A stretch of DNA of 29,724 bases from Plicaturopsis crispa FD-325 SS-3 (taxonomy: Eukaryota; Basidiomycota; Agaricomycetes; Amylocorticiales; Amylocorticiaceae), in the NCBI GenBank assembly GCA_000827205.1, contig KN832577.1, forward strand, positions 103,469-133,192. Reading direction: 5' to 3'. This document shows positions 6,307 to 27,184 of this stretch, one piece after another. Made by a program: the position numbers and the translations under genes. Every line of letters starts with the position of its first letter. Positions within the stretch are counted from its first letter, which is position 1. The notes beneath the pieces are model-generated. The model worked only from the letters and a program-made list of their open reading frames with translations, had not been told where the DNA came from and made no database searches.

Positions 6307-7431
6307 ATGCAAGAGGACATCGAGCCAATACTCTCCCCCAGACACCGAAGGCTGGATTTGTTTCCTATACAATACACTAATGTATGTCTTACATGCTTGT
6401 CCGTACAGTCATGGATCTGATTCGTCTTTCGCAATAGATGTGGACAATATACAAAGGAGCACAACGCAGCTTTTGGGTAGCGGCACCCGCTACCTTCAGG
6501 CGTCTTGACGTGCTCGAATGGCAAGAAAGCCTCACGAACGTCGACAGACGCTATTACTCGCGCCTTCTCTGCATTCTCGCAGTATGGGACGGCCTCTCCG
6601 GTACCTTGAACGCAGTCGCACGTTTCGCATCAGAAATTCAAGTTCCGGAGGCCCAGTTCTTTTATACCTTTCAGATGGCAGTGTACGTGCCTCTGTTGGT
6701 GTGATACTATCCACTTTTTGCTTACTGTAATCTGTCCTCAGGAGCGATGTGCATACTGAATCATACTTCCAAATGCTCTGCGACGTTATACCGGATCCAC
6801 AGGAGCGCTCTATGTTGAAGGAATCCGTCCTCCCTCTCCCCTCCGTCCAACTGAAAGCTGCCTGGTGCAAGAGGTGGATCTTTGACCAGGAGGCTCCTCT
6901 TGCGACAAGGCTGATAGCCTTCGTATGCATGAATAATATATTCTTCTCCTCCTCCAGTGCGGCCATATGCTGGATCGCTTGGGAACGCGGGCTTATGCTC
7001 AGTATGACCACACGCAACGAACGCATACTGCAACACGGAGAAGCACACTTACAATTTGCCGCCCTGCTTTACAACGACTACTTGCAGATCAAACCCACCC
7101 CAGATGCAATTGGTCGCATTGTCGGAGAGGCGGTAGAGCTGGAGAAGCATTTCAGCCAAGGTACGTCGCAACGACGCTTTGCAAATACACTTAAGCGGAT
7201 CATATTTCTTGTTTCTAGAACTCTTGCAAGAACCAATCTTAGACCTCAACGCGACGTCTATGGATATGTTCATAGAACACTTTGCCAACCGCATCCTTCG
7301 CATCTGTGGTCTACCTCCACTATACGAGTATGCGATAAACCCGGTTCGTCTAAGCACTACATGTAGCTAAAGAGGACGTGGACTGACCGACTACACAGTT
7401 TCCCTTCATGTGTCCCTTTGTAGACACGTAG
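6307..7431 (+). CDS. Ribonucleotide reductase small-subunit (R2) homologue, degenerate metal site, no R1-binding tail
   Basis: A five-exon gene: 6307-6381, 6438-6682, 6742-7160, 7219-7343 and 7399-7431, predicted 298 aa. All introns are 55-59 nt GT-AG. R2 family matches run along the whole length: EPILSPRHRRLDLFPI, MWTIYKGAQRSFW, WDGLSGTL, IQVPEAQFFYTFQMAVSDVH, NIFFSSSSAAICW, RGLM, AHLQFAALLYNDYL, EAVELEKHF and the final NPFPFM. In class I R2 proteins six residues bind the di-iron centre (mouse D139, E170, H173, E233, E267, H270). Here D76, H111 and H209 are kept, but the three Glu are S108, N171 and G206. The tyrosyl-radical position is kept as Y115, while the D266 equivalent is H205. The protein stops just after NPFPFM, so the roughly 40-60 residue tail that docks on R1 is absent. 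It probably cannot make a normal radical. A regulatory or scaffold role like yeast Rnr4, or relaxed decay, are the main options. The open frame with good splice sites argues for a live gene. Confidence 0.85.
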
Positions 7432-8159
7432 CACAGGACAAGTAACGCCGTGGATAGTATGTTTGTGTGAAAAAGAGAAAATATATTGCTTTGACTTCGG
7501 ACCAATAGATCACGACAGATACTTGAGCGTTGTATGAAGTGAGGTCACCTTAATCTTAGGGGCCAAAGTCAGTACAAATCATGTACCAGCCAATATACTG
7601 CCAGTGGCGGCACGTCCAACGGCCTAGGAACGCAGAAGCGTATATGCCTATGGCATCCTAGCTAAAGATATCCCGTGTATGCACAACCAGAAGGCTAGTG
7701 CAGCTTATGGATACGAGCAAGGCAAAGGCGACAAATCAATATTGACGCCTGAACGACTACTGCTGTCGATACATGATAATACTGCAAAGAGAAGTTACAA
7801 CCCTCAGTCGAGCAGGGAAAGGGTACAAGAAAACACCTGATGGGGACGCGGTCCCAAAGCTACGTAGAAAAGCGGGCAACATGTGTAACAAGGAGAGAAA
7901 AAGGCCATATTTTTTCGTGGTTTCGTAGGTTTTCTGCTTTTTTTATGAGTAGTGAAAGGTTTTTCTGAGGGGAGGGAGGGAAGAAACTATGGTTCAAGCC
8001 AAACTCGAAAACGGGTAAGCCAAACAAAGACTTTCAGGGTAAAGACAACAAGAGTCCCCGATAACGAAGAGCAGAGAAAGAAGAAATAATGTGGAACAAA
8101 GAACGAGGAACAGGGAGCACAGGATGAGAAGGGACAATCTGGTCGGGGAAAGGAGCTCA
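7432..8159. other. Intergenic between convergent genes
   Basis: About 730 bp between the 3' ends of two convergent genes, so it should contain both polyadenylation regions. It holds poly-T and polypurine runs (7908-7946, 7965-7990) but no open frame or repeat I can support. Confidence 0.5.
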
Positions 8160-9837
8160 CTAATGCTTGCTCTTTTTTTCCTTGGCCGCTCTGGTCTTTC
8201 TCTTTGGAGGTGAAGGGGCATGCACCGCATCGTCAACGTCATCCGTGGCCCGTCTCTTCCCAGCAGCGACGTCTGCAATCTGGGGGTGAAGGTTTTCCTT
8301 GTTAGCGTCGGACATCTCGACGTCTTTTGTAGTCGCCTCGGGATTGCCTTTAGCATCCGTCGCTGGATCAGGTTCGGATGAGCTGGAGTCGGAGGGTTTG
8401 TTGGATGGACCTAATGCATGCCGGTATTGAGGTCAACACGATGTATACGGTGATCCACATGCTGATTCACTCACCCGTTGTGGTTGCCAAAACGTTAGTA
8501 TCGTGGCTTTCACCCGCGGCAGGTTCCCTGGATCGGTCCTCGCAATCCATAGTCATCTCTGAGCCCGCGGCTGGAGCGTCGATGTCGTGATCAAGCGTCT
8601 TCTTACTGGTAGATGCCGACGAGGCGCCGTTCCCCGCCTGCTCATTTCCCAACTCCACGTCGTCGGGGGGAGGAGAGACGTGATTCCAATAAAGCTTGTC
8701 ATCTTCGTCCTCGTCTTCGTTTTCGGCTATTCCGAGTGGCAAAAGGGGATATTGGTAAGCTGGGTAGTCAAAAGTTCATGTCAAGAGACTTACGAATAGT
8801 ATTCAGGACACCCTCAGGGTGAAGGGGCGGACGGGCACCGTCCAGTCGCATATCGAGTCCCTCTGAATCAGGTGGGGGAGAGAAGACACGTGTGATCTCC
8901 CTGGGGCAGATCTCCGGAAACCACTCGTCCTGCCCGATGACATACGATATGGTGAACGATATCCAGACGATGTCACCTTCGAGGAGCTCGGGCTGCGCGG
9001 TGGACTTCAACAGAACAAGGGATTTCGTTGACCCCTCCCATTTGACGGCCATGAGACGAGCCGGAGGGACAAAGCTTGGGACGTACTCCGAGGAGCCCTC
9101 AACGGCTTGACGTATAACGGGGTGGGGCGTGTAAGGAAATTTGTTCTGCTCGACCAGATTTGCATTCCGTTTGGTCTTGCGGGAAAACAAGGGACAGGCC
9201 ATTTGAAATTGATTGCCGACACGGCACTGCCAGTTACTTCTCGTTCTACTGACGCGCGCAATGTTATCTTCATCATGTGCTAATTGCTCAATCGCCTTCA
9301 AGAACATCGCCGTCAGATATGGTGCGGTAGACCGCTCGAGAAGTATTGGCTCACACCAGTATGTCCTCGTAGAGTGATTTATCCTTAGAAGTATCGAAAG
9401 TGTATGTGACTTTGCAAGACCAACTGGGCGCGCGCTGTCTGATGAATATTTATCGTCATTCACCATAGTTGTGGAGAATAATCTTGAATGCGACCTACAT
9501 AGTGGCTGTGGGGATAGACCGCGAGGCAGTCGCGCGAGGCGGAACATAATTTCCAGTCTCTGGGGGTGTACCGCGCAACCATACAGCGGCATGCTTGAAA
9601 ACGGCTGGCTCTTTGTTGTTGATTCTGTTTACCTGTTGGCGAGTAAGTCAGTAGCGAGACCTGAGGCAATGTGGCCATCGTACGCACAGTGAAGCGTTCT
9701 GCTCCCTTGACACGTTGAAGGGTGACAAGCGGTCTTTCAGATTCGACAGACCTAGCTGCCTTGCTGAGCGTAATCTCGAGACCACTGATACGCTCATGCT
9801 TCCATCGTTTCAGAGCGGAAGGTGCATCAGCGTCCAT
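8160..9837 (-). CDS. Unknown protein with acidic region and basic nuclear-type C-terminus
   Basis: A multi-exon minus-strand gene from ATG 9837 to TAG 8162-8160. The product begins MDADAPSALKRWKHERISG. It continues through EPAVFKHAAVWLRGTPPETG, a segment SWSCKVTYTFDTSKDKS, then NWQCRVGNQFQMACPLFSRK, and a beta-rich part with ARLMAVKWEG and GDIVWISFTISYVIGQDEW. After that comes an acidic low-complexity region (ENEDEDEDDK) and a Ser/Pro/Ala-rich tail ending PPKRKTRAAKEKKSKH, which resembles a nuclear localisation signal. Introns are inferred near 9689-9635, about 9505-9445, 9355-9300, about 8785-8752 (short, about 34 nt) and 8476-8411. I do not recognise a named domain. The even pattern of splice sites and the disordered charged tail suggest a real nuclear protein. 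Its function is unknown. Confidence 0.7.
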
Positions 9838-13197: not shown

Positions 13198-14461
13198 CCG
13201 GAACTGCACTGTATGCTTACGGGACGTACATATACAGGTTGAATCGCTTAACACAATGACAGTCCCAACTACTTCCAACTTCCACGCCACCTCGTCGACG
13301 AATAGCCTACGTAGACATGTACTTTTACAGTCACAAGTGTAGGCATTGGCCCAATTATCTAGACTGTCCTTTCTTGCACGGCTTTCTCGCAGACTGACAT
13401 ATTTCCATACTGGCTGCAGAGTACTCAGCCCTTAGCATAAAGACGGATCGGTCGTTCCCTCGAAATGTACTGATCGGCCGCGGCGCATGAAAAGGGCTCA
13501 TCTCATATGTTGGCGCCAACGGGGATTGGACTCAAACCGACGTCAGCGACGATACATGCCAGAAAACGAGCTCAGGGTACGATTTAAACAGCGTAACAAG
13601 TACAATAACAGCACCTAGTACAGAGCAAAGTCCACCTCCAGCTGCACTTGGCGGCGTGCTAACGATTGCAGAATACAATATGAATCTGCCGTCCAGATAG
13701 ATCAGAACGACGGGGAGGACAAGGTGAACTGGTCATTGACCATGACTGTAGCGAGTATTGGCGTAGTAGATATTGTTTGAGTATGCACTGATCTGTACGC
13801 ACCTAGTACCGTGCACTGTCCGCCCTCCGAGAAACGCCTTGCACGTTTTGTGTTGGATGAAAGGATTCCCGGTGATCCAGTCAGTCAACACATCGTCTCC
13901 TGAAGTTGCTTAATTAACATGGACGTGTCGACGACGATGAAGCAAAGGCTCACCAAACAAGCGGCGCGCATACAGGTTGTAATAGAGGAAGTTGCAGTAG
14001 CCGTGGATCGCACCGTCGCAATGTCATACTGTTTTGGTGCCTATTTTCCTGCTTGCGCTCGGACCACTTGGGACGGAACTGCAGATATCATGTTAACACG
14101 TTGTCCTCATTGCTACGGATAAAAATACCTGGGACTCTGCGCAATAAATGCAGTCTATGACATTGATAACACAGACTTCGGACATCCCAGGGCCTTCCCG
14201 TAGAAACCTACAATAGACGACACCCGTTTCTATTGACAATGCCTGAACGACAAGGTGATGAGACCCGGGGTGCCAAGTAGGTAGACTGAATAGCACGGTA
14301 CCTTGGTCATGGAGTTTGTGCTCCTGTAGAGCTGGTCACTCTGAAGATTTGAGGCCCTCGGGGTGCCTTCGCAACATCCTGTGTCCGGTGGGCTGAAAGG
14401 GTGGGTTTATTCCATTAGAAAAACAGATATTAAGCGAGACAAATGTAGAGAAATGGTATAC
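13198..14461. other. Intergenic, no supported gene
   Basis: About 1.26 kb between the F-box gene and the SNF2 fragment. It contains a perfect 12-bp palindrome GTTGGCGCCAAC near 13509-13520. No long open frame has recognisable motifs. If the Helitron includes the SNF2 fragment, its 3' end should lie here, but I could not find a hairpin followed by a CTRR end on the minus strand. Confidence 0.4.
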
Positions 14462-14823
14462 CGAATAAGCGGGGTGCGCGGACATGACAATTTACTGTAC
14501 GTCGCGCCGTCCCGGCGCGGGCGCGTCGGGAGTGGACGCGCCACAGACAGATCCTGCTGCAGCACTGGGTACGTCGTTATGCAGACATCAAACGTGTTCA
14601 CGTATGAGCACCAATCCATCGGAAGGTCCGCGTCGTCGTTATCTACGTCCATGGGGTCTGGTTCGGGCTCCTTGTCTTTCACGCGACGCCCCTTACTGTT
14701 TGCGGGCGCTGCTTTGGCTGGGGCGAGTTTCTTACTGCTGCTCCTCAACACGATGGCGTCCTGCTTTGTGATGGGCACCTGGAGCTTCGACCAGCCGTCG
14801 TAGATGAGCACTTTCAGGCTGCG
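14462..14823 (-). pseudogene. Exon-like fragment of an SHPRH-type SNF2 helicase
   Basis: On the minus strand this segment reads SLKVLIYDGWSKLQVPITK, then a charged linker with a KGRRVKDKEPEPDPMDVD run, then WCSYVNTFDVCITTYPVLQ, DLSVARP, RPRRDGATYSKL and CPRTPLI. This fits the stretch of SHPRH/Irc20-type SNF2 ATPases between the first helicase motifs and the DEAQ box (human SHPRH has a matching ITYDVL and a PSPLVAVEWW segment). The segment stops right before the expected VEWW and DEAQ part. A TGA lies just upstream at 14829-14827. The left edge has a CTGACAG acceptor and the right edge a GTATAC donor, so it looks like one exon with scraps of intron. Neither Walker A nor DEAQ is present, so it cannot be functional alone. 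It lies 540 bp past the Helitron helicase stop in the same orientation, which suggests capture by the element. Confidence 0.6.
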
Positions 14824-15360
14824 CTGTCAGAGATTGGGCATTTCTTCGTATGCTTCTGCACGGGTATGATCAGATAGCCCTATGGTCGACGTGCAATGTG
14901 AACACGGTCGAGTTGAACCTTGACCAGAGACATGCTCACCAGCAGGCTGTTTTATCCGACTAAAGTTCGAGATGATGTCCTGGCGGTCCTCCCTCAGCCC
15001 TACTCGAGTGGGTCCCTGCCCAAGCGTCTTCCCATGCAGCAGGACTGATGCATGGAATGAAACAAGATGACACTTATTACGAACAAAGCCTAGCACGGCG
15101 TTGCGAGACGTCAAGACTTCCCGTATGGTCAAAACGTCTATCGAAGGACTGACCTTCAAATCTACGTCCTGCACTCCACCACACGACGGAGTTTGCGTTG
15201 GGCATGATATGCCCGAGATGAAAATGTAGAGTGCCACGAGACGAATGGAAGCGAGACCGATCTGCCTGGATGAAGAGTAGTGGAACGTTAGCAGTCAGAT
15301 TGACGAGGAAGAGACAAGATATTTCTTTGCTTACGTAATATTGTTCGCCCAAGACCGAAA
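14824..15360. other. Spacer between SNF2 fragment and Helitron helicase
   Basis: About 540 bp with open frames on the minus strand (for example 14827-15237) but no motif I recognise. It may be part of the Helitron 3' region. Confidence 0.35.
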
Positions 15361-16311
15361 TCACCGTGACCGTGTTCTGTTCAGATACAGCTCTTTAGTC
15401 GCCACATTCAATTTATCTATACGGTCCAATTCACTTCTCAGTTGCTGCGAAAGTCTCTTTCCACATATTGCATTGTCTGGAAACCACCGCAAGATTGCTA
15501 GCCCTCGCAAGCTCCTGACACGCGATAACATCACGTACATGCCTTGCAAGCTGCGAGCGCTGCCCAAATCAACAATTGCACGATCTAGTGACCTGCCTTG
15601 GCTTTTATAGTCCGTCAGGCAATAGGCAGGAATAAGGGGCATTTGCGTACGTGTTGCCGAGCGTCGCCCACGAGCTGTCTGAAATTTCATGGTAGTTTTC
15701 ATAGGAAATATGGGGACGATGTCTTCGTCGAGATCATCAGCAAAACGGCCAGATCCCTCGACGCGCACATAAACGACATCGGCAAATCGGTGCCCGTCGT
15801 CATCCGTCGTATACTTGATGCTGTGCACAATTCCTTCTGTGCCATTGACAATCGATTTACTGATTGCTTCGTTGGCAGTAATCATGACTTTCATCCCAAC
15901 AAAAAGTGGTAGTTTACCCAAGTGGCTCTCTGTCTTGGACGATGCCATGTTCCAAAAAGCGCGCTGAAGCCATCCCGATTCCACCGGTTTTCGAGAAAAC
16001 ACGTCTTTGGAATGGTAAAACTCGAGTGTCCTTCCCAGGCGTTTCGCATGCTTACTACTTTTTTTCAGATTGAGGGCATCCCGAAGGGCTGTTGATCCTA
16101 CAATAATGGGAGCATCTCGGAACAGATGTGCCTCTGCAGGAGTTTTCTTCCAAAGAGTAGAAAAATCGCGCTCGCGCAAAATCGCTACGTCACTCAACTC
16201 TTTTCCACCAGCTCTTTTCATTGAGCGTGTATCTGTACAGTTCCCGACACGCAATCGCGCAAGGAATTCCGTATACCAGGGGTCATTTTTCTGACGCTGA
16301 TTCTTGGTCAA
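15361..16311 (-). pseudogene. Helitron helicase, C-terminal part
   Basis: This continues the helicase after the nonsense codon at 16360. It contains LTKNQRQKNDPWYTEFL, PLFVGMKVMITANEA, LTDYKSQGRSLDRAIVDLG and YVMLSRVRSLRGLAIL. These match motifs IV to VI of the Pif1 and RecD-like helicases in Helitrons. The methionine start of the open frame is an artefact of the upstream stop. The frame is intact to its end at LYLNRTRSR. Confidence 0.8.
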
Positions 16312-16359
16312 CGTGACGACTGTGTTTACTTTCCTCCACAGGTATGCACCGTACAGCGA

Positions 16360-18633
16360 TCAAACATGGAAATCGTTTGATCCAGCCGAATACTGAGGCT
16401 TGTCAACAAGGTCAAATGCATACAGAGCCTTCTGTTTCACAGGCTCCAACTGACCAAAATCCCCAGTGAAGATGATATTCAGACCACCGAAAGGCACGTC
16501 GTCAGTGTAGTATTCATCTCCTTTCGCTTGTCTCAGCCGGTCCGAAATTTTGTCCAACAGATGAGCGCCAATCATGGACACTTCGTCGACGATCAGATAC
16601 TTGACGCCGGCCCAAAGTGCTTTCAAAAGGGTGTAATCCGGTTTCTCGCCGCTTCGACTCAACATGACTAAAGAGTGAATCGTATACCCCCCTATACCAA
16701 TTGCTGCACAACCGGTAGGGGCACCCAGCATAAGTTGATCGGCGCGTGATACTTTCTCAAAGAGACGTACAATGCTTTTAATGACATGCGACTTTCCAGT
16801 TCCACCTACACCGGCAATGTACATCAGCAACTGTTCTGTTCCCATACGCATGTGGTCTGCGACAATCCGGAATGCTCTTTCTTGTTCCTCGTTATCGGAA
16901 AGTTGCATTTCACTAATCACACTCTCGACAGCATCCTGAAAGATTTCATCTTCAGATTTTTCCTCGTCGCCAAGGGCATCCTTCTCGTGTGTCGGGGTTT
17001 TTTCGAGCGACGTCACCGCGAGGGAAGGCATTCCCTCATCGAAAGTTTGGAAACCCGTCTTTTTCTTCTTATTTCGCTTCCCGACTTTGTGCTGAGGCCG
17101 CTTGTTCTTTGACAAAGCATGCATCACATCAGCATGCTTATCGACTACGGGAATATCTTGTGGAAGCAGGACAGTACTATCATCAATACATGCTACGGTT
17201 TCCATGACTGACCGATCTTCGCATTCTTCAAGGGCCTGACGGCAGTGTTTATCTACGTGAAAACGCAGCACGTCAAAATCAGGGTTCCTATCGCCAGACT
17301 CAAGATCGACGGCCTCGTTGAGGACAAAATCGATCTCGTCGGCGTCTGGATCATCACCACCCCTTCGAGAGTATTCCTCGAGGAAGAAGTCCGGTCCAAA
17401 AGATGCATTGCCAGTACCTTTTCCTTGATGCTGCCGAGATTGTAAAAGGTTGTCTCTCGCATCTTTGCATTCGGACATTACAGTCATGTTTCTAATGATC
17501 TGTAGGTGTCTGTCCCTGATCGAGTGTTCGTACTCAAGAAAGGCATTGTACCAGGTTTCATTCGGTGCCCGTAAGTCCTGCGGATGCCTCCATGGTTTGA
17601 ACAATATCAGCATGGATCGTGCCCAGTCATCACGCTCCTGTTCGGTTCTATCCCGCCGAGATATGGATTCTCCTAGGATAACTGGGATCTGAAATACATC
17701 CCATCGTCTAAATTTCATCCTATGTGTTTCGTACTGAGGATGATTAGGCGAGGACATGCGGCCCTGGTTTTGGATTTGTATCGGCGTCCCATCGAAATTA
17801 GCTAACCCTGACTGTGATTGCTCAGGTATTCTCGTTTTATTCACTAGGCCAACAAAGTCATACAGACACAGTGAGTCCGCATTAAAATCCTTTGTTCTGT
17901 ACATATAATCATACTGCTGGTTTGTAGCCGTTATCGACCCTGATCCAAGTGTCAAGACGCATCTGTCTTTGTGGGCAGCATCATCGGTCTCGCTTCGGAA
18001 ATCCACCGCCAGCTGCGGGGAGTCATCTTCCTCGTTTATGTGGGAGTTCGCCTCTCCGCGACCAGCTTGAACGCTCGCAAGTCTTTCCAACGTTGCCAGC
18101 GGATCGCTAGAATCTGGTATGTCTACGTCTTCGCCGTCAAAGTGATTGTCGTCGATGTCTATTTCGTCGCGGTTGACTGATTCCCTGGGAGCTAAGAAGT
18201 CATCGGAAACATCCATCATATCATCCTGCGCGCTTGCGCTTTGGTTCGCGTCTTCGTTATTCTCGCCATCAACATCCATCGGAGGATCACTGTCAGACCG
18301 CGGGAGGTTGGTATCATCGCCAGTACCCAAGTTATCTTCAAGGTTCGTCGTGTTCTGGTCATGAAGTACTGGAGCGTCTCCGTCATTACCATCAACCACA
18401 GGGTTATTTGCCGCGGGGCGACTGAAACGGTAAGGTTCTCCAAACCAATTAGCAAATAACCTCTGAAATGGCGACCAGAACAAGATAGCAAATTTCTCGG
18501 AAGTGTAATGATCGCCACCACCGATCAAATATGACATTACTTGTTGGTGAGAGATTTCCTGCCTCCCCATCAGCCCGTTAACGAGAGTTACGAGCAGATT
18601 TAGGTGCTTTGCCGCCGGATTCAACAGATTCAT
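16360..18633 (-). pseudogene. Helitron helicase, N-terminal part
   Basis: A 757-codon open frame. Its start (HLNLLVTLVNGLMGRQEISH) joins the end of the Rep domain. A long acidic linker follows (rich in DDxxxDxD), then the Pif1-type helicase. It shows Walker A GVGGTGKSH, motif II VDEVSMIG and motif III FTGDFGQLEPV. The frame stops at TGA 16362-16360, after GSNDFHV. The very next in-frame codons (SLYGAYLWRKVNTVV) continue the helicase, so this is a nonsense mutation rather than a natural end. Confidence 0.8.
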
Positions 18634-19155
18634 CTGCTTCAGCTTTACGATCTTGACTTGCTTTTTCGTTGGTGCGCTTTATGGCGTACTGAAGCGCACC
18701 CAAGCCCACATGTGTCGGTAACGACGGCTTCGTGATATAGTCCGTACAATAATACAGTAAGGCTTTTGCTGCTTCGCCAGAACCAATAAATTTCACATCG
18801 ACGTTGCATTGCAGTAAAAATATCAAGACATCATTATACGCTGCTATCCGCGGGTGCAGTCAACGCAAAACTATTGACCGTGTATCTTCATCGATGTACG
18901 TCTTTGGATTAGTCTTCCCGTTCATTCTCATCCTACAATTGCGGTCACGATCGACATTTTCATCAGGAGGTTTTCCTCTCTTCAAATACTTCCAGCAGGT
19001 TGAGTTATGCTCATGCCAATTGTACGCTTCGAGTAACTGATTGACAAAATCAATGTAGCTCTTGTTGAAATCTTCACGTCCTAGCTCTGATATAAGTGGC
19101 TGTGCAACTGTACCAGGATGGGGGTGGTCCTCTCGCTCCTCTGTGAGGTCGCGGG
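18578..19155 (-). pseudogene. Helitron Rep C-terminal part with catalytic tyrosines
   Basis: This continues the Rep domain after the first frameshift. It reads through FVNQLLEAYNWHEHNSTCW and NGKTNPKTYIDEDTRS to an in-frame TGA at 18862-18860. It then goes on in the same frame as HPRIAAYNDVLIFLLQCNVD, and includes ALLYYCTDYITKP. The paired Tyr of YYCTDY fit the two catalytic tyrosines of Helitron Rep. The frame is lost again near 18630, where it overlaps the start of the helicase ORF in a different frame. Confidence 0.75.
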
Positions 19156-22043
19156 AAAATAACCCCCGGAGGTTCTACCACCACTTCGTCCGTGCCCATG
19201 AGCTCACATCTTATAATGCTTTCGAGCCAATTTATCATGGCGTCCTTGTACTCTGCAGAATGCTCCATTCGATCGCGGAGGCCTTGCGGCGACGGATGCC
19301 CTTCAAGCCAAATCAGTAAATGAAGGTGAAGTGTTCCCTTTCCTTGCGCCTCGACAGTGCCATAGTAACCGACACACTTCCCAAATATGCCCTTGCCGTC
19401 ACGGCCATAACGCAAGATAATGGCCAAGAACTTTTTCACCATTGTATCAAAGAACACGGCGCATGACCCAGGGTTGTCAGCGACAAGTACATTTCGGTGC
19501 CAGTCATCTAGGTCATCGCCGCGCATAGCATCCTGGATATCAATGTCCTCGCCGGTGAGCAGTCTAACAATTGGATTTTTTACATCAGATGGATTTATGG
19601 TTGCGAATATAGTCGCAGTGCCTCGGAAATTCATCATCGCTCTTATCTCGTTGCGGAGTTTGACCTTGTACGCAGCAGTTCCGGGTAGGTTATGTCCAAC
19701 CAGATTAACTCGCCCTAAAAGTTTCATGATGTGCTTCTCCGCAGGATACGCGGGCTGATAGGAGGGATCTGCTTTGAATCGATCCTCTAAGGTCTTGATC
19801 TCGTCGACATTAATGCTCAACAATTCACGAGTGATGCTCTCGTGGAGGCCTGTGGGGACCGTGAAACGTACGTTGTCAAACACCGTCTTCTTCTGGATTA
19901 TATTAAAATAGACAAAAGCAAATTCAGGATCGCGCTCAAACAAATTCCCTTCGATTCGAAGGATATGACTCAGTTGGTCTGTGATCGACAATGGGATTTT
20001 TCTACGAGGCTCATAAAAAGCACCTATACCCCAAGGATCAAGGTGGGGAAATAGCCACGACAACAGTTTCGGGTTATTGAAATCGGGAACCAGTGTACTT
20101 CCAGCGGTAGACTTAAGGAAACGTTTGCCCTCAAGGCAGTGAGTAAGTGCTCTGGTTTTCATCTGAGTGTAGCTGAACGCGCTTGTATCCCCAGACGTGA
20201 ATCCGACGTTCTCCATCAGCAAATCTGACCCGTCGCCTGGAAACTCTTCGATGTCGTTTCTAGTTGAATAATCAGATGTGGCACTGTCAGCAGCGGCATT
20301 TCGAGGTATGTGCCCAAGCTCCATAGAACCGGCAACACCCTCGTCATCCATTGAAAATTCGCCCTCAAATAGATCATCCAAATTCTGCTGGCTGAAACCA
20401 TGAAAGTCGTGTGAAGGTGCGTAATGTGGGTTGTTTTCGACCAAGAACTTGATCATGGTCTTTACTCTACTCTTCCTAGTCAGGACAGGCCCCAGTTTCC
20501 TTATGGATTCCATGGTTGGCTTTTCCGAACCCACAAAGACCGTGCATATTGTGTCCGCGACGGTGGTAGACGGTGCCGGCAAAACATTATTAAAGTGAGT
20601 CACATCCTGTGGCATGATCATAACATTGCCCCTAACAAAGCGCTGCTGTTCCTCCCATGTGTCCCCATACATCTTCTTCAGTTTACTCTTCGGATCGTCA
20701 GGATCCACGCGGTTACTTGGTAACTGATTGACCTTGATACAAATTTTGCTCGCCCTAGCTCGCGACGATAGAACCTTGTCGCACACTGTGGCAGACGAGA
20801 AAGCACTCTTTGCAGTATCTGGTAAGCTATCAATTCCATAGTATAACCAGTTTGCTAGTGCATGCTTCGGCATCTCTGACGTCCCAATCACTTTGCCGTG
20901 ACAGGTTTTGCACATGCGCATTTTTCCTAGTCGATCATTATCGAACAAGCCCTTTGGGTGCAATATGGCACGATTGTAAGCGTCCAAATCATAGGTCTTA
21001 GGCAGACAGGCTTCGGGAAGCTCATCATTTCTCAGTAGAGATAAATCAACGTCTGTTCCCTCCACAATGATGATTTCAGCAGGGCTCGTTTTTTGCCCAC
21101 AAACAGCGCACACAGACGTGGAAAGACGACTCGTGCTCATTTGTTCCTGCCATTCCTCGATGATTACGTTGCGGGACTGCTCGTCCAGGACTCCAAGATG
21201 AGCTGTGTCTAGGTCAGACAACGAAGGATAGGGGATTTGGTCTGCAAAGTTGTCTACGTTGGTGTTGTCGTCATCATCTACAGTCTGTAGGCCTTGAGAT
21301 GCGACCGACACAGGTACTATTTCTTCTAACATCCGTGCTAGCCCATTGCGTCGTGGGTATTTTAAGGTGCTAAAGACATAGACAATTTGACGGCAAGAGT
21401 AGGAACAAGTATGGTTACTCAACAGGTCACGCATCTCTGCCTTCGTATTGGAGAAACGATACTGAACTCCGTGTTGACGGCAAAGTTTCACAAAATCCAA
21501 GCGCTTAAAGAACAAGAAGCGGTTCGCTAGGATGGCTACGTCAACCTGCAAAAGCAAATACACAGCGGACTCTGAGATTCCCGAGGGACAGTGGTCGTGA
21601 GACTTGTAAAATGTCTTATATTCATATCTAGAATTAAGGTCAAGGACAGGCACCCCTTCGATGATATCGTCCACAACATCCGCTACTAAGGAGACATATT
21701 CCATATTCCATATAATTATATCAGGTGAGGTCAAACGACCGGAGGGAGCAATGGATGGATCAGCATAGGAGGGAGCCAGTGAAGGTAAGACGACGCACAC
21801 TGTCGACGGGGTACCTCTTCGGAAGGACAGGCAGATGGACGAGCATCTGGTAACAGTTGTGTCAAGACGACAACGATCATTGACGAGATCCACTAGAAAC
21901 TTACCTATTGGAGCGGGGAAATCGAGTGCCGGTGTAAGAATACGCGGAGGCTGTCCTACGAGATGTGAATTGCCACGATTACGATGTCCAGAGGGAGAGC
22001 CTTGGACATGCGGGGGAGAAGCAAGTTGAAACGATGAAAACAT
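19074..22043 (-). pseudogene. Helitron Rep N-terminal part
   Basis: A long open frame of 989 codons that leaves the true frame near 19155. A Cys/His-rich section includes CAVCGQKTSP and CKTCHGKVIG. After it comes the Helitron-like N domain with SWLFPHLDPWGIGAFYEPRR, NPSDVKNPIVRLLTGEDID and the Rep motif YYGTVEAQGKGTLHLHLLIW. The two His of HLH are metal ligands in HUH-type nucleases, so the nuclease half is recognisable and this motif is intact. The N-terminal 70 codons are low-complexity and may be partly intronic. The frame is lost just after GVIFPR: the matching sequence (EEREDHPHPGTVAQ onward) continues in another frame. The last roughly 25 codons of this ORF are therefore out of register. 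Confidence 0.8.
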
Positions 22044-23070
22044 AGAGAGCTAGACGGGGGAGTCAACAAAGTGTCAGCGTCAGCGAGACATGCATATATA
22101 TATATCACATCCGGAGGCAGGGAAAACATTTACCGGGGTACGCAATGAGTGGGAGCACATGCACATCGCCACAAAGTCCACAGAGCATGCTGGCATGTAT
22201 GGGTGTGCTTCTTGGGTCAAGTGAGGTCGTGCTCCGCAGTGTTGAGAGGAGTTTGGCCGAGAAGATTTGTACATTGAAGAGTAGCCTGCGCAGCTCGGCT
22301 TCGGTCGCTTCAGGGGCAAGGGGTGTAAACCTTCGTTTGTGCTCTGGAGGTTGAGCTCACCTCGCGACCTAATCTGGCCTGATGATTGATCGTGCCTATG
22401 GAGCGGGAGACATGTCCTTCTTGTGCTCCTTCAAGACCGTCAGCTGCTTGGCCGCAGGCGTCCTGCTCACATCATTCACAGGGGTTCCGGTAAGAATCAG
22501 CTAGTCCATCTTCGCGTGGTAATCTATGATAACCGATAAGATGGATGATCGATAAGATGGACTTGCTTTCTTGGCGTTGTGATTGCTGGACGTTATCGCG
22601 TGCATTTATCGACGAGCCACATGAGACCGTATCTTTGAGGGACAAGTTAAAAGCACAACCTAAGGAGCTTGGCCTACGATGCTAATTTAGACAGAATGCT
22701 TTCAGTCTCTTTCCACCGGATGTCTGCAGTACCTTCAAGAGTAAAGACCGCAACACGTGTATGTGGCGTCCTTCTGAACCTTAACAGACCCGCGATTGAC
22801 GCTTCTACAAGGGTGTTGTGACTCAATTATACAGTGGACATTTAGTGCTTATAGCTCCAATGCATGAGGCACCAGTGCGGTGATCGCCTTCACCTGAGGT
22901 TGCACATACACGAGGCTGATAGCCGTGATTCCAGAATGTATGGCTATGCCGTGAAATTTGGGTTTGGATAAGTCAATACCTCAGAGAGGCATTCCATTCG
23001 AAATGGGCTTACGTATAGCCTGGAGAGTGGCAGTCAGTGGCGGAATTAGGAAGACCGTTTTATCAGTATC
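22044..23070. other. Intergenic, Helitron 5' side
   Basis: About 1 kb upstream of the Helitron frame. It has a short TA repeat at 22094-22105. On the minus strand at 22140-22350 there is an open segment with a CGLCG motif that might be an N-terminal Helitron exon, although I could not join it in phase to the ATG at 22043. From 22371 to 23070 I see nothing recognisable. Confidence 0.35.
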
Positions 23071-23141: not shown

Positions 23142-23468
23142 TACTGGTGAACACGGGGACTTGCCGTAATGACTGCCGCTCATTGTGCGCACGGTGTGCC
23201 TTACACATCTCACGTCAAAGAAACTGACCCGCACCCCGTGTAGACTGAATCCACAGCTAAATTACATATAATACGGAAAGCTGAGTTGGGCGTACCCAGT
23301 CCCATACCCCACTGCTTTTCTAACGTACCGTCAACAGTGTCTCGAGATGGTCATCTACTCCCCAAGCGCAATATGGCGCTACCGATCCAGCGGTGGATTG
23401 ACGCTCCCGCGCAGGAATCCCCAGGAGTAAGCAACCTTCACATTTTTTCCTCGGTGCACACGCTTACA

Positions 23469-23858
23469 ATGTCTAGAACTCACGACGAGCATAACGCTCG
23501 CATGGCTGCGGTCATTGCACAATTCAGAGAGAAGCCGATACCTGAGAGAACACACTTTCTACGAATCCAGCGTGCGCGCCGGATGATGGATAGACAGCTC
23601 CTCTACCAAAGGAATTTCCGCCCAGTCAACAAAGACGTCGAGCACTGGATGACCGATGTCTATGATATATGGGAGAAATATCAGTATTTCTCAGTGGGTG
23701 AGACGGTGGTCGGGCTAATCGGTGGTGACCCAAGCGGCGTGTTGGCGGGGACGATCAAATCCATTACCGCTGCAGGACCACAGGTTATAAATCTGGAGCT
23801 TTCTCTTGAGCACCCATACGAATACTGTGACTGTCACTTCATCACCGTTCAACTGTGA
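23469..23858 (+). CDS. Small unknown protein, possible KOW-like C-terminal segment
   Basis: An intronless open frame of 129 aa beginning MSRTHDEHNARM and ending HFITVQL. The first half is charged and helical (RTHFLRIQRARRMMDRQLLYQ, about residues 29-49). The second half (VGETVVGLIGGDPSGVLAGT, then GPQVINLELS) has the G-V-G spacing of a small beta-barrel such as a KOW or SH3-like fold, but the match is weak. The same frame is open upstream, so an in-frame ATG at 23373 would add 32 residues. I prefer 23469 because the added residues are less protein-like. No homologue is recognised and the function is unknown. Confidence 0.5.
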   Translation: MSRTHDEHNARMAAVIAQFREKPIPERTHFLRIQRARRMMDRQLLYQRNFRPVNKDVEHWMTDVYDIWEKYQYFSVGETVVGLIGGDPSGVLAGTIKSITAAGPQVINLELSLEHPYEYCDCHFITVQL

Positions 23859-24918: not shown

Positions 24919-26309
24919 ATGTCTGCGTACCCCCATCATCTCTTCTCTCGTCCTGTTTATGAGGTAGATTTTGTTGGATCGGACGATTCTGCTCTTTTTA
25001 GGACAGTTCATGGTATGAGGTTCAATGCGACGAATCCAAGGTGAGTATGGTACCTCCAAGCCCGGCGTCTGTTTCGTGCCGCTGACTGGGATTTTTTTTC
25101 TAGATATATGATACCTGCCGACGAGGATGCCAGACGTGTTTGTCTCGTCCGACCTTCTTCAACTGTGATCATTCCTCATCTTGACCCTGCTCCTAGCGCT
25201 CCTATCTCCTCCATAACATGGTTTGGTTCATGTTTAATGGTAAGGCCTACATTGGTCCAGTTGCCGATGTACTTCGATCCCGTCGGGACCACGGTCAGCG
25301 TCATATCATTGATTTAGGTACTGGTGGCGGAGACTGGTTGGTCGCTCAAACTTCCCTCCACCCGATGTATTTGACAGGATTTCTGCACGATTAGGGCTAT
25401 CTCCATTGCTGACGAGTTTCCTCGGGTCGAAGTCACTGGTGTCGACCTGGCGCCCATCCAGCCCAGGTAGTTAATTTTCACTCTTCAGTTGTATAATCAG
25501 TAGTCATTTATTTCGCAGACTGGTGCCGTCGAACTGCACGTATGCCTTCTCCACTCTGTTCTGTTTCCTTGTTGAGTTCTGACCAACGATTCTAGCTTTG
25601 ATGTATGCGACCTAGACTTTTTTGAACTTTTGTATCCCCCGTCTACGTACGACTTTATCCATGCTCGTGCAATGCACACGGGGGTGAGTCTCTTTCCGTT
25701 TCCATCTCGTTTGCTGACTCTTGAATTCACAAACTTTTTCTTTACCAGATCTCTAATTATCCACGCTTTCTCAAGGAAGTGGGTCGTATGCTACGTACAG
25801 GTGGTATGGTCCTTCTCATCGAGCTCGACCTCGAGCCAATGGCGGATGGTAGGATGGAATCCGAGTTGCAAGGTTACTCGGGTCTGTCTGGTTGGTTTGC
25901 CCTCTGGCGCGCATACCATCATTGCCTTCATCGTCTCGGAGGTATCGACGTGACCGTTCCTCAACACCTGGGTGAGCTTTTGGCAGAAGCTGGACAGTTC
26001 GAGCATATCAGTACTAGGGTGGGAGATGTTCCTATAGGCTTTTGGCCTCGCGGTACCTACCTATTCTTCTGGCGTACTCTTCCGGATGATCTAATTTCAT
26101 TTTCTGTAGACCCTTTGAGACTGACCATCGGGGAGATTGCTTGGATGTACTTTGATTCTTTGCTCCCCTCCATGTTGCCTCTCTTCATCGATTCCGGGTA
26201 TTCGGAGGGTCATGCGAAGGTCCTTATCCGTAGCGCTCAGGAGGACTTGTACCACCCCATAGTCCACATGTCGACTCGTCTTCATATCGCATGGGCTTTC
26301 AAGAAGTAG
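24919..26309 (+). CDS. Class I SAM-dependent methyltransferase
   Basis: A seven-exon gene: 24919-25040, 25104-25137, 25197-25336, 25395-25466, 25519-25539, 25596-25683 and 25749-26309, predicted 345 aa. All introns are 52-65 nt GT-AG and all phases join. Motif I is IIDLGTGGGDW (about residues 89-99), the SAM-binding glycine loop. It is followed by ISIADEFPRVEVTGVDLAPI with the acidic residue that binds the ribose (motif II). FDVCDLDFFELLYPPSTYDF (motif III/IV region) and YPRFLKEVGRMLRTGGMVLL (motif V-VI) follow. The N-terminal NPRYMIPADEDARR resembles the YMLPxD lead-in of mushroom methyltransferases. The C-terminal half carries GFWPRGTYLFFWR and ends HIAWAFKK. It should transfer a methyl group from SAM to a small molecule or protein. 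The substrate cannot be told from sequence, and no biosynthetic cluster lies beside it. No targeting signal is visible, so a cytosolic place is assumed. Confidence 0.85.
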
Positions 26310-27184
26310 TATACAACTGTGGACATATACGATCGCCGGCACAAAAGCATGCTTGACGTATTTTATCCCTCCAGAGTGCGCGCCCGCAGACTGCGAGATC
26401 TTTTACACCCTCGATACAAGTAAACCTCTCGAGGCTCTCGTCAGCAAAAAAAAAAAAAGGAAAATCGTCAGACGACATGGGATTATGTAGATTATCTTGC
26501 ACCTGTAGACCTTTAGGTAGGTCCCGAGTTTATAGCATGCTGTAGCATTCTATGATCACTCTGTACCAACTTATAGACATATATACAAGGCTGGAGCAGT
26601 ATAGCGGTGTAACTACAATATATATACATAGTAGATATAAGTACTGCGTGGAGATATACTACCTTCCACCTCTACAGACAGCCTAGTAAGGGCAAGGAAA
26701 CGTCTACCCGCGCACAGGGCGTCTACAACATGATGTTGAGAGCGGACTTTCCTTCTATCACAACCGAAGATGCGAGCCTACACAACTCGGATACTCAGCA
26801 ACAGCATAGAAACAAACAATGATGAACGTACATGGTAGCCTACGTTGACGCGGGGGGGGGGCAATGTGGACGGGCAGACGAACCCCGCGGGTTCCTAGCC
26901 CACCAGCGACAGGGACACCCACCACTTCAGCGTTGCTATACCTTCGGAATGTATGACCTCGGGTACGGTTATGTAAGGAGACGCCACTTACAATTTCCCA
27001 TGGTATGGGGACGAGGCAGACCACAGCACCACTGGTTGCTCGACAGACACTGTCGACCGAATCGGTGTTGACGCGGGTGGCGGCACTGCTGCATATATGA
27101 GGGGGGAGGACACGCTTCAGCAATACACGCCATCGGGGGCAAAACATACGCACCTTGGTAACCGAACTGCGCGTCGCGCAACTC
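26310..27184. other. Intergenic, AT-rich then GC-rich, no gene seen
   Basis: About 870 bp after the methyltransferase. It has a run of 12-13 A at about 26446-26458 and several TATATA tracts at 26577-26640. A run of nine or so G lies at about 26852-26860. Open frames here lack motifs. The first part should hold the methyltransferase 3' untranslated region. Confidence 0.45.

Follow-up and report, generated by a model that had tools for sequence, protein, structure and literature searches.

The window analysed here, a 29,724-nucleotide stretch of the genome of Plicaturopsis crispa FD-325 SS-3, contains a small intron-bearing gene on the plus strand (6307-7431, hereafter C24) and, on the minus strand, a broken RepHel gene of a Helitron subfamily (15361-22049), recognised by Pfam matches to Helitron_like_N and PIF1 and by tblastn with the RepHel proteins of loci C10 and C2b. 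The C24 model has exons at 6307-6381, 6438-6682, 6742-7160, 7219-7343 and 7399-7431, and the four introns between them (6382-6437, 6683-6741, 7161-7218 and 7344-7398) all read GT..AG. It splices to 298 amino acids with no stop or frameshift, in line with the initial annotation, which had described five exons joined in frame by clean splice sites. Searched with PF00268, the R2 profile, the spliced product scores 202.2 bits against a cut-off of 33.6, and the match spans all 281 profile positions (1-281), the whole core by which the small subunit of class I ribonucleotide reductase is recognised. Its best phmmer matches in the PDB were chains of human p53R2 and yeast Rnr2 (~196 bits), with yeast Rnr4 lower at 142.9. 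Judged by its model and profile match, C24 is a real gene of the R2 family. Elsewhere in the window, a fragment on the minus strand (406-768) weakly resembles a protein kinase (E 2e-4, short of the Pfam cut-off).

All four carboxylate positions of the R2 metal site are occupied by other residues in C24 (T44, S108, N171 and G206), as seen when the protein is aligned to its paralogues and to the R2 proteins of mouse, human and yeast, and both His ligands (H111 and H209) are retained. The gene thus keeps two of the six metal ligands (four carboxylates and two His) of a catalytic R2, together with the radical Tyr (Y115). The codon for T44, at the Asp ligand position, lies at 6492..6494 (placed by MAFFT and phmmer alignments, with coordinates from the exon table); codons S108-Y115, in which Ser stands for the first Glu ligand and H111 and Y115 are kept, at 6743..6766; N171, at the second Glu ligand, at 6932..6934; and codons H205-H209 at 7034..7048, all on the plus strand. 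In this last group the third Glu ligand has become G206, H209 is kept, and H205 replaces the Asp neighbouring the Glu, D265 of the mouse protein. The same ligand set, in yeast numbering, is given in PMC3824934. The initial annotation had listed the three changed Glu ligands, the two His and the Tyr as we find them, and it had also counted the Asp ligand as retained. That count was wrong: the ligand is the sixth residue after a conserved Trp, which is T44 in C24. D49, eleven residues past the Trp, is matched by both MAFFT and phmmer to another Asp that is not a ligand, and by these alignments the earlier count must refer to D49 through an alignment slip.

The last exon (7399..7431, plus strand) encodes FPFM, six further residues and a stop in the gene model, so that the protein ends six residues past the NPFPFM motif, near the start of the R1-docking tail, as had been noted. 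C24 lacks the last ~45 residues of R2, the region from this point on to the tail. The lost tail was not found in 7411-8700, where the local scores of 28 and 21 stay below the highest values reached by 100 shuffles (37 and 41), positive controls scoring 118-131; it is therefore absent both from the C24 model and from the DNA just downstream. Human R2 chain 3olj likewise stops at the NPFPFM motif, which means that the usually crystallised part of R2 is complete in C24.

Our PF00268 search of the genome returned 19 matches, representing eight R2 genes, and R1 is encoded by a single gene. Two R2 genes on contig C1 are the ordinary host copies, a divergent pair that are 80.4% identical, with full ligands and with tails reading FSLDEDF and FTLDEYF. 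This pair occupies L009:1734-4890, with ~0.4 kb between the divergent genes. The other six (C2a, C2b, C10, C18a, C18b and C24) form one clade in the protein tree (100/100), lack the long N-terminus and, over the stretch that their models cover, carry one or two additional introns. C24, which had been set against a host R2 as a possible duplicate, belongs instead to this six-member lineage, found beside Helitrons, and is one of two members without a metal site. Three members, C2a, C2b and C10, have all ligands and the Tyr, and their tails read FSVHEDF, FSTTEDF and FSTAEDF, respectively. A frameshift in C2b was considered and is better read as an intron, since its third intron (L011:2572-2621) reads GC-AG, not GT-AG. 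C18b also has intact ligands, but the gene is interrupted, its first three exons lying ~4 kb from the last ones, in which the tail region is still readable (L021:5315-5928, minus strand, and L013, on contig C18); the gap appears to be either an insertion or an intron of unusual length.

The remaining member, C18a, carries N, Q, N and S at the four carboxylate positions, keeps the two His and the radical Tyr, and ends where C24 ends, so that C24 is not the lone case it had seemed. Known R2 chemistry implies that C24 and C18a, without carboxylate ligands, would form no usual diiron-tyrosyl radical and, without the C-terminal region, would make no usual contact with R1. These losses support the prediction that C24 is an R2-family protein for which catalysis in the known way would be impossible. 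We regard it as extremely improbable that the ligands or tail of C24 are restored by different splicing or by an exon missed in the model: a single long exon holds three of the four changed ligand positions, the four introns sit exactly where C2a, C2b and C10 have theirs, no tail homology was found in 7411-8700, and the model of C18a has the same losses.

C24 and C18a are paired in the protein tree of R2s (93.5/94), in a tree made after removal of eight ligand and neighbouring columns (88.8/91), and in a tree with viral R2s added (97/99). They have 14 exclusive states in common, compared with 0-3 when C24 is paired with any one of the other four lineage members. Four alternative placements of C24 are rejected (p 0.003-0.027), and one, outside C18a+C18b, survives (AU p=0.114). 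Both genes are on long branches, C18a and C2a have 9 exclusive states in common, and the sole replacement common to C24 and C18a at ligand sites is Asn at the second Glu. On these trees and shared states, C24 and C18a likely lost the carboxylates and tail by common descent, short of proof because of the rival placement of C24 and the states that C18a has in common with C2a.

The pattern of retained residues could also be read as the basis of a new role, in which the two His and the Tyr would serve another metal or a ligand pocket, for instance, given that these residues are kept in both genes despite four changed carboxylates and that C24 keeps all 6 of 6 invariant Trp. We consider this very improbable. 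Invariant residues are kept at 71 of 109 positions in C24 and 75 of 109 in C18a, so that retention of these three is not rare by chance, and a conserved replacement ligand set is not seen between C24 and C18a, which have only N at one site in common.

A PF14214 search of the genome found at least eight Helitron loci. Five RepHel proteins are mutually 53.7-58.9% identical in a 776-column comparison and form one subfamily; those of C44 and C3 form a second group, with 76.3% identity between the two and 23.5-26.0% to members of the first (this comparison did not include the C7 RepHel, a fragment). An R2-like gene lies within 10 kb at all five RepHel loci of the first subfamily versus none of the three other Helitron loci, and the PF00268 genome search gave no R2 match on C44, C3 or C7. 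Likewise, all six lineage R2 genes are within 10 kb of a RepHel of this one subfamily. The Rep domain and a PIF1-type helicase occur in one protein at C10, C2a and C2b (Pfam), as expected of a Helitron; the C18 RepHel is readable only to the contig end, with the Rep part seen; and in the window the Rep and PIF1 parts are in separate open stretches of the broken gene, whose lesions comprise two frame changes and at least two in-frame stops. Four R2 genes are head-to-head with RepHel, at distances of 2.8 (C2a), 1.5 (C2b), 1.6 (C10) and 1.1 kb (C18b), four loci spread over three contigs. C18a, on the same side of its RepHel, is 9.4 kb away from it. C24 is not head-to-head and lies 7.9 kb beyond the 3' side of the broken window RepHel.

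That five clusters would by chance all lie no more than 9.5 kb from one of the eight RepHel loci has a probability of ~9e-12, a figure that ignores the clustering of mobile DNA. Homology searches also found what we take, by eye and with no Pfam match, to be F-box-like genes at the C2a, C2b, C18 and C10 R2-RepHel pairs (L027, L021, L029 and C10:371307-371567), which are the four best of 14 matches. Several weaker F-box-like genes share these regions of C2 and C10 and, because the same islands hold them, part of the co-location of R2 and Helitron may reflect clustering of mobile DNA.

The slot divergent from RepHel, which holds R2 at four sister loci, is filled in the window by a 204-residue open frame with no Pfam family (23244-23858, plus strand). 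A weak relative of this frame (27% over 111 residues, E 8e-5) is found at C18:620797-621129, beside C18a, and among the matches listed from a whole-genome search were the frame itself and one weak C2 match. A further gene (25390-26310, plus strand) is common to the window and the C10 Helitron locus (blastn, 67% over 939 bp) and is weakly methyltransferase-like (Methyltransf_23, E 0.02, below the cut-off). Just past the 3' side of RepHel, at 14407-14826 on the minus strand, is an open stretch that reads like an SNF2/SHPRH-type fragment; it gave no Pfam match. At C44 (L030) and C3 (L031), a different gene is divergent from RepHel, mutually related between the two loci at 35-43% identity in two stretches. 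Since C44 and C3 share this other divergent neighbour, a divergent accessory slot 5' of RepHel may be general.

The flanks of the R2-RepHel loci are largely different. The RepHel tree favours a pairing of C2b and C18 (80.7/65), and the three best of eight R2 trees hold the same pair, the others being worse by at least 5.6 log units; of the five R2 trees without it, only one is rejected (AU p=0.036), and the RepHel and R2 groupings are thus weakly concordant. Together with the head-to-head layout and the differing flanks, this concordance gives indirect backing to the suggestion that R2 lies inside the Helitron element. Neither a hairpin-CTRR end nor a common 3' motif was found at these loci; fungal Helitrons can have other ends, according to PMC5148889. 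Among the open-access PMC papers listed by our searches, none had a title or an opening of its abstract that dealt with an R2 gene near Helitrons, and no word beginning 'reductase' occurs in the main texts of PMC4289320, PMC12730594, PMC5148889 or PMC10799480.

Intron positions bear on the source of the element R2. The host pair, C2a, C2b and C10 agree exactly in having introns at columns 99 (phase 0), 320 (phase 1) and 406 (phase 2) of the alignment; C24 and C18a keep those at columns 99 and 320 and both lineage-specific introns, the third having gone with the tail. Because three positions are common with the host genes, the element lineage seems to have arisen from a fungal R2 gene with introns, by capture or duplication. 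The protein tree does not nest the six-gene lineage within the two host R2 genes, and the lineage would therefore be old or fast-evolving. We also considered a viral origin. The best viral R2 match (IMG/VR) is 59-61% identical to C2a, C2b, C10 and C18b over the core, and the tree link of element R2 to viral R2s is weak (67.2/56 and 58.9/58), but the three exact intron positions shared with host genes point to the fungal source. Of 54 IMG/VR stretches that fit the RepHel pattern, none was confirmed as a relative.

The ligand-intact element R2s are, by codon models, as constrained as the host gene and under strong purifying selection (omega 0.013 versus 0.016 in the host pair, with omega=1 worse by 303 log units). 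Saturated synonymous sites make all omega values rough, including the estimates from the eight-gene model for C24 (0.10), C18a (0.02) and the background (0.016). In this model omega=1 is worse for C24 by 3.7 log units (2dlnL 7.4), and 2dlnL is 7.1 for C18a; in a four-gene model C24 has an omega of 0.15 (2dlnL 4.7, or 2.4 log units) and C18a one of 0.02 (2dlnL 8.6). The same-genome dN/dS comparison proposed in the initial annotation thus argues against free decay in the eight-gene model and is only marginal in the four-gene model.

These data bear on whether C24 is decaying cargo, a transposon-borne R2 that has lost its function and is drifting, its open frame a leftover. We think this unlikely. 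Besides the rejection of omega=1 in the eight-gene model, a position test that works without synonymous sites indicates constraint at particular positions: C24 keeps the state agreed by C18a and C18b at 43 of 61 anciently invariant versus 25 of 57 variable columns (p=0.003), and that agreed by C2a and C2b at 68 of 101 versus 38 of 92 (p=0.0002). The corresponding tests of C18a gave 43/58 versus 25/40 (p=0.16) and 71/101 versus 50/92 (p=0.016). In simulations of neutral drift (0.3 substitutions per site, 400 runs from each gene), the frame stayed free of stops in 2 runs for C2a, 1 for C24 and 0 for C18a, and the frame of C18a, which has lost what C24 has lost, is open too; on the other hand, 0 lesions in the 0.9 kb of C24 against at least four in ~6.7 kb of RepHel could also arise under equal decay. 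Drift would also fit the broken state of the neighbouring RepHel, the fast evolution of C24 (branch length of 1.0 substitution per site in the protein tree, with omega ~7-10 times the background) and the stem to C24+C18a, where omega=1 is not rejected and the branch is near zero with omega at its bound. On balance, C24 is probably under relaxed purifying selection rather than in free decay, and it is possible that selection on it ended recently.

From these comparisons we lean towards viewing C24 as a non-catalytic, tail-less member of the R2 family that travels with, or lives beside, one Helitron RepHel subfamily. The ligand-intact element R2s, with their EDF-type tails, could use the single host R1 and so raise the dNTP supply for rolling-circle copying. 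Large DNA viruses use their own R2 to raise dNTP supply. Since the R2 core, which C24 and C18a retain, forms dimers in known R2s, the simplest function for a metal-site-less protein would be to pair with a catalytic R2, to which it would bring neither radical nor tail. We offer tentatively the idea that such a protein, if expressed, keeps the R2 core and acts by pairing in this way, most simply damping or tuning its partner. The fuller scheme, in which the Helitron subfamily carries its own R2 for use with the host R1 in making dNTPs, and some loci have bred a metal-site-less, tail-less R2 that binds a catalytic R2 and tunes or blocks it, is doubtful as a whole. If it were true, the constrained dNTP-making subunit of a transposon family would be cargo of a kind not seen before, plainly useful for replication, and dNTP provision of rolling-circle transposons would become a testable question.

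Among known systems, yeast Rnr4 (PDB 1jk0_B, 1sms) resembles C24 as an R2-fold paralogue with lost metal ligands and the radical Tyr position kept, and the Saccharomyces cerevisiae protein is 31% identical to C24 in our alignment. The losses themselves run nearly in reverse: in Rnr4 both His have become Tyr, one Glu has become Arg and the Asp has become Glu, whereas in C24 and C18a the R2 cofactor would be lost with the carboxylates gone and the histidines kept. Rnr4 also keeps its tail (ending NFDDDF), unlike C24, which stops soon after NPFPFM. Rnr4 groups with Rnr2 in all trees holding both (97.7/97, 97.7/96 and 95.6/100), consistent with the earlier proposal that C24 is an independent case, and C24 has neither the clade membership nor the tail of an Rnr4-type partner. 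Rnr4 is described as an essential host subunit in PMC9431586 and provides the precedent for a ligand-losing R2 partner (PMC3824934 and PMC9431586). By analogy, C24 and C18a, whose distances from RepHel (7.9 and 9.4 kb) exceed those of the intact copies, could be domesticated proteins that assist cofactor assembly in the host R2, the Helitrons being incidental; the absence of the tail that Rnr4 retains, and descent from the Helitron-linked lineage, not from host genes, make such a host-side partner improbable.

The reading of C24 as a non-catalytic companion of a Helitron subfamily has partial parallels in other systems. Like C24, apicomplexan R2_e2 (Plasmodium PfR4) is a second, divergent eukaryotic R2 with long branches and open frames, and it is thought to act beside a canonical R2 (PMC3824934). 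By description there, R2_e2 keeps the iron ligands and conserved C-terminus and has lost the Tyr in most taxa, the reverse of C24. Fungal Helitrons with accessory genes, such as HELPO1 with its captured genes and the TET/JBP-bearing elements, likewise combine RepHel with an adjoining non-transposase gene, but differ in that their descriptions, in the main texts of PMC4289320 and PMC12730594, mention no R2. The R2 genes of large DNA viruses (IMG/VR) resemble the element R2 in being carried by a genetic parasite, from which the element genes differ in having introns at three host-gene positions.
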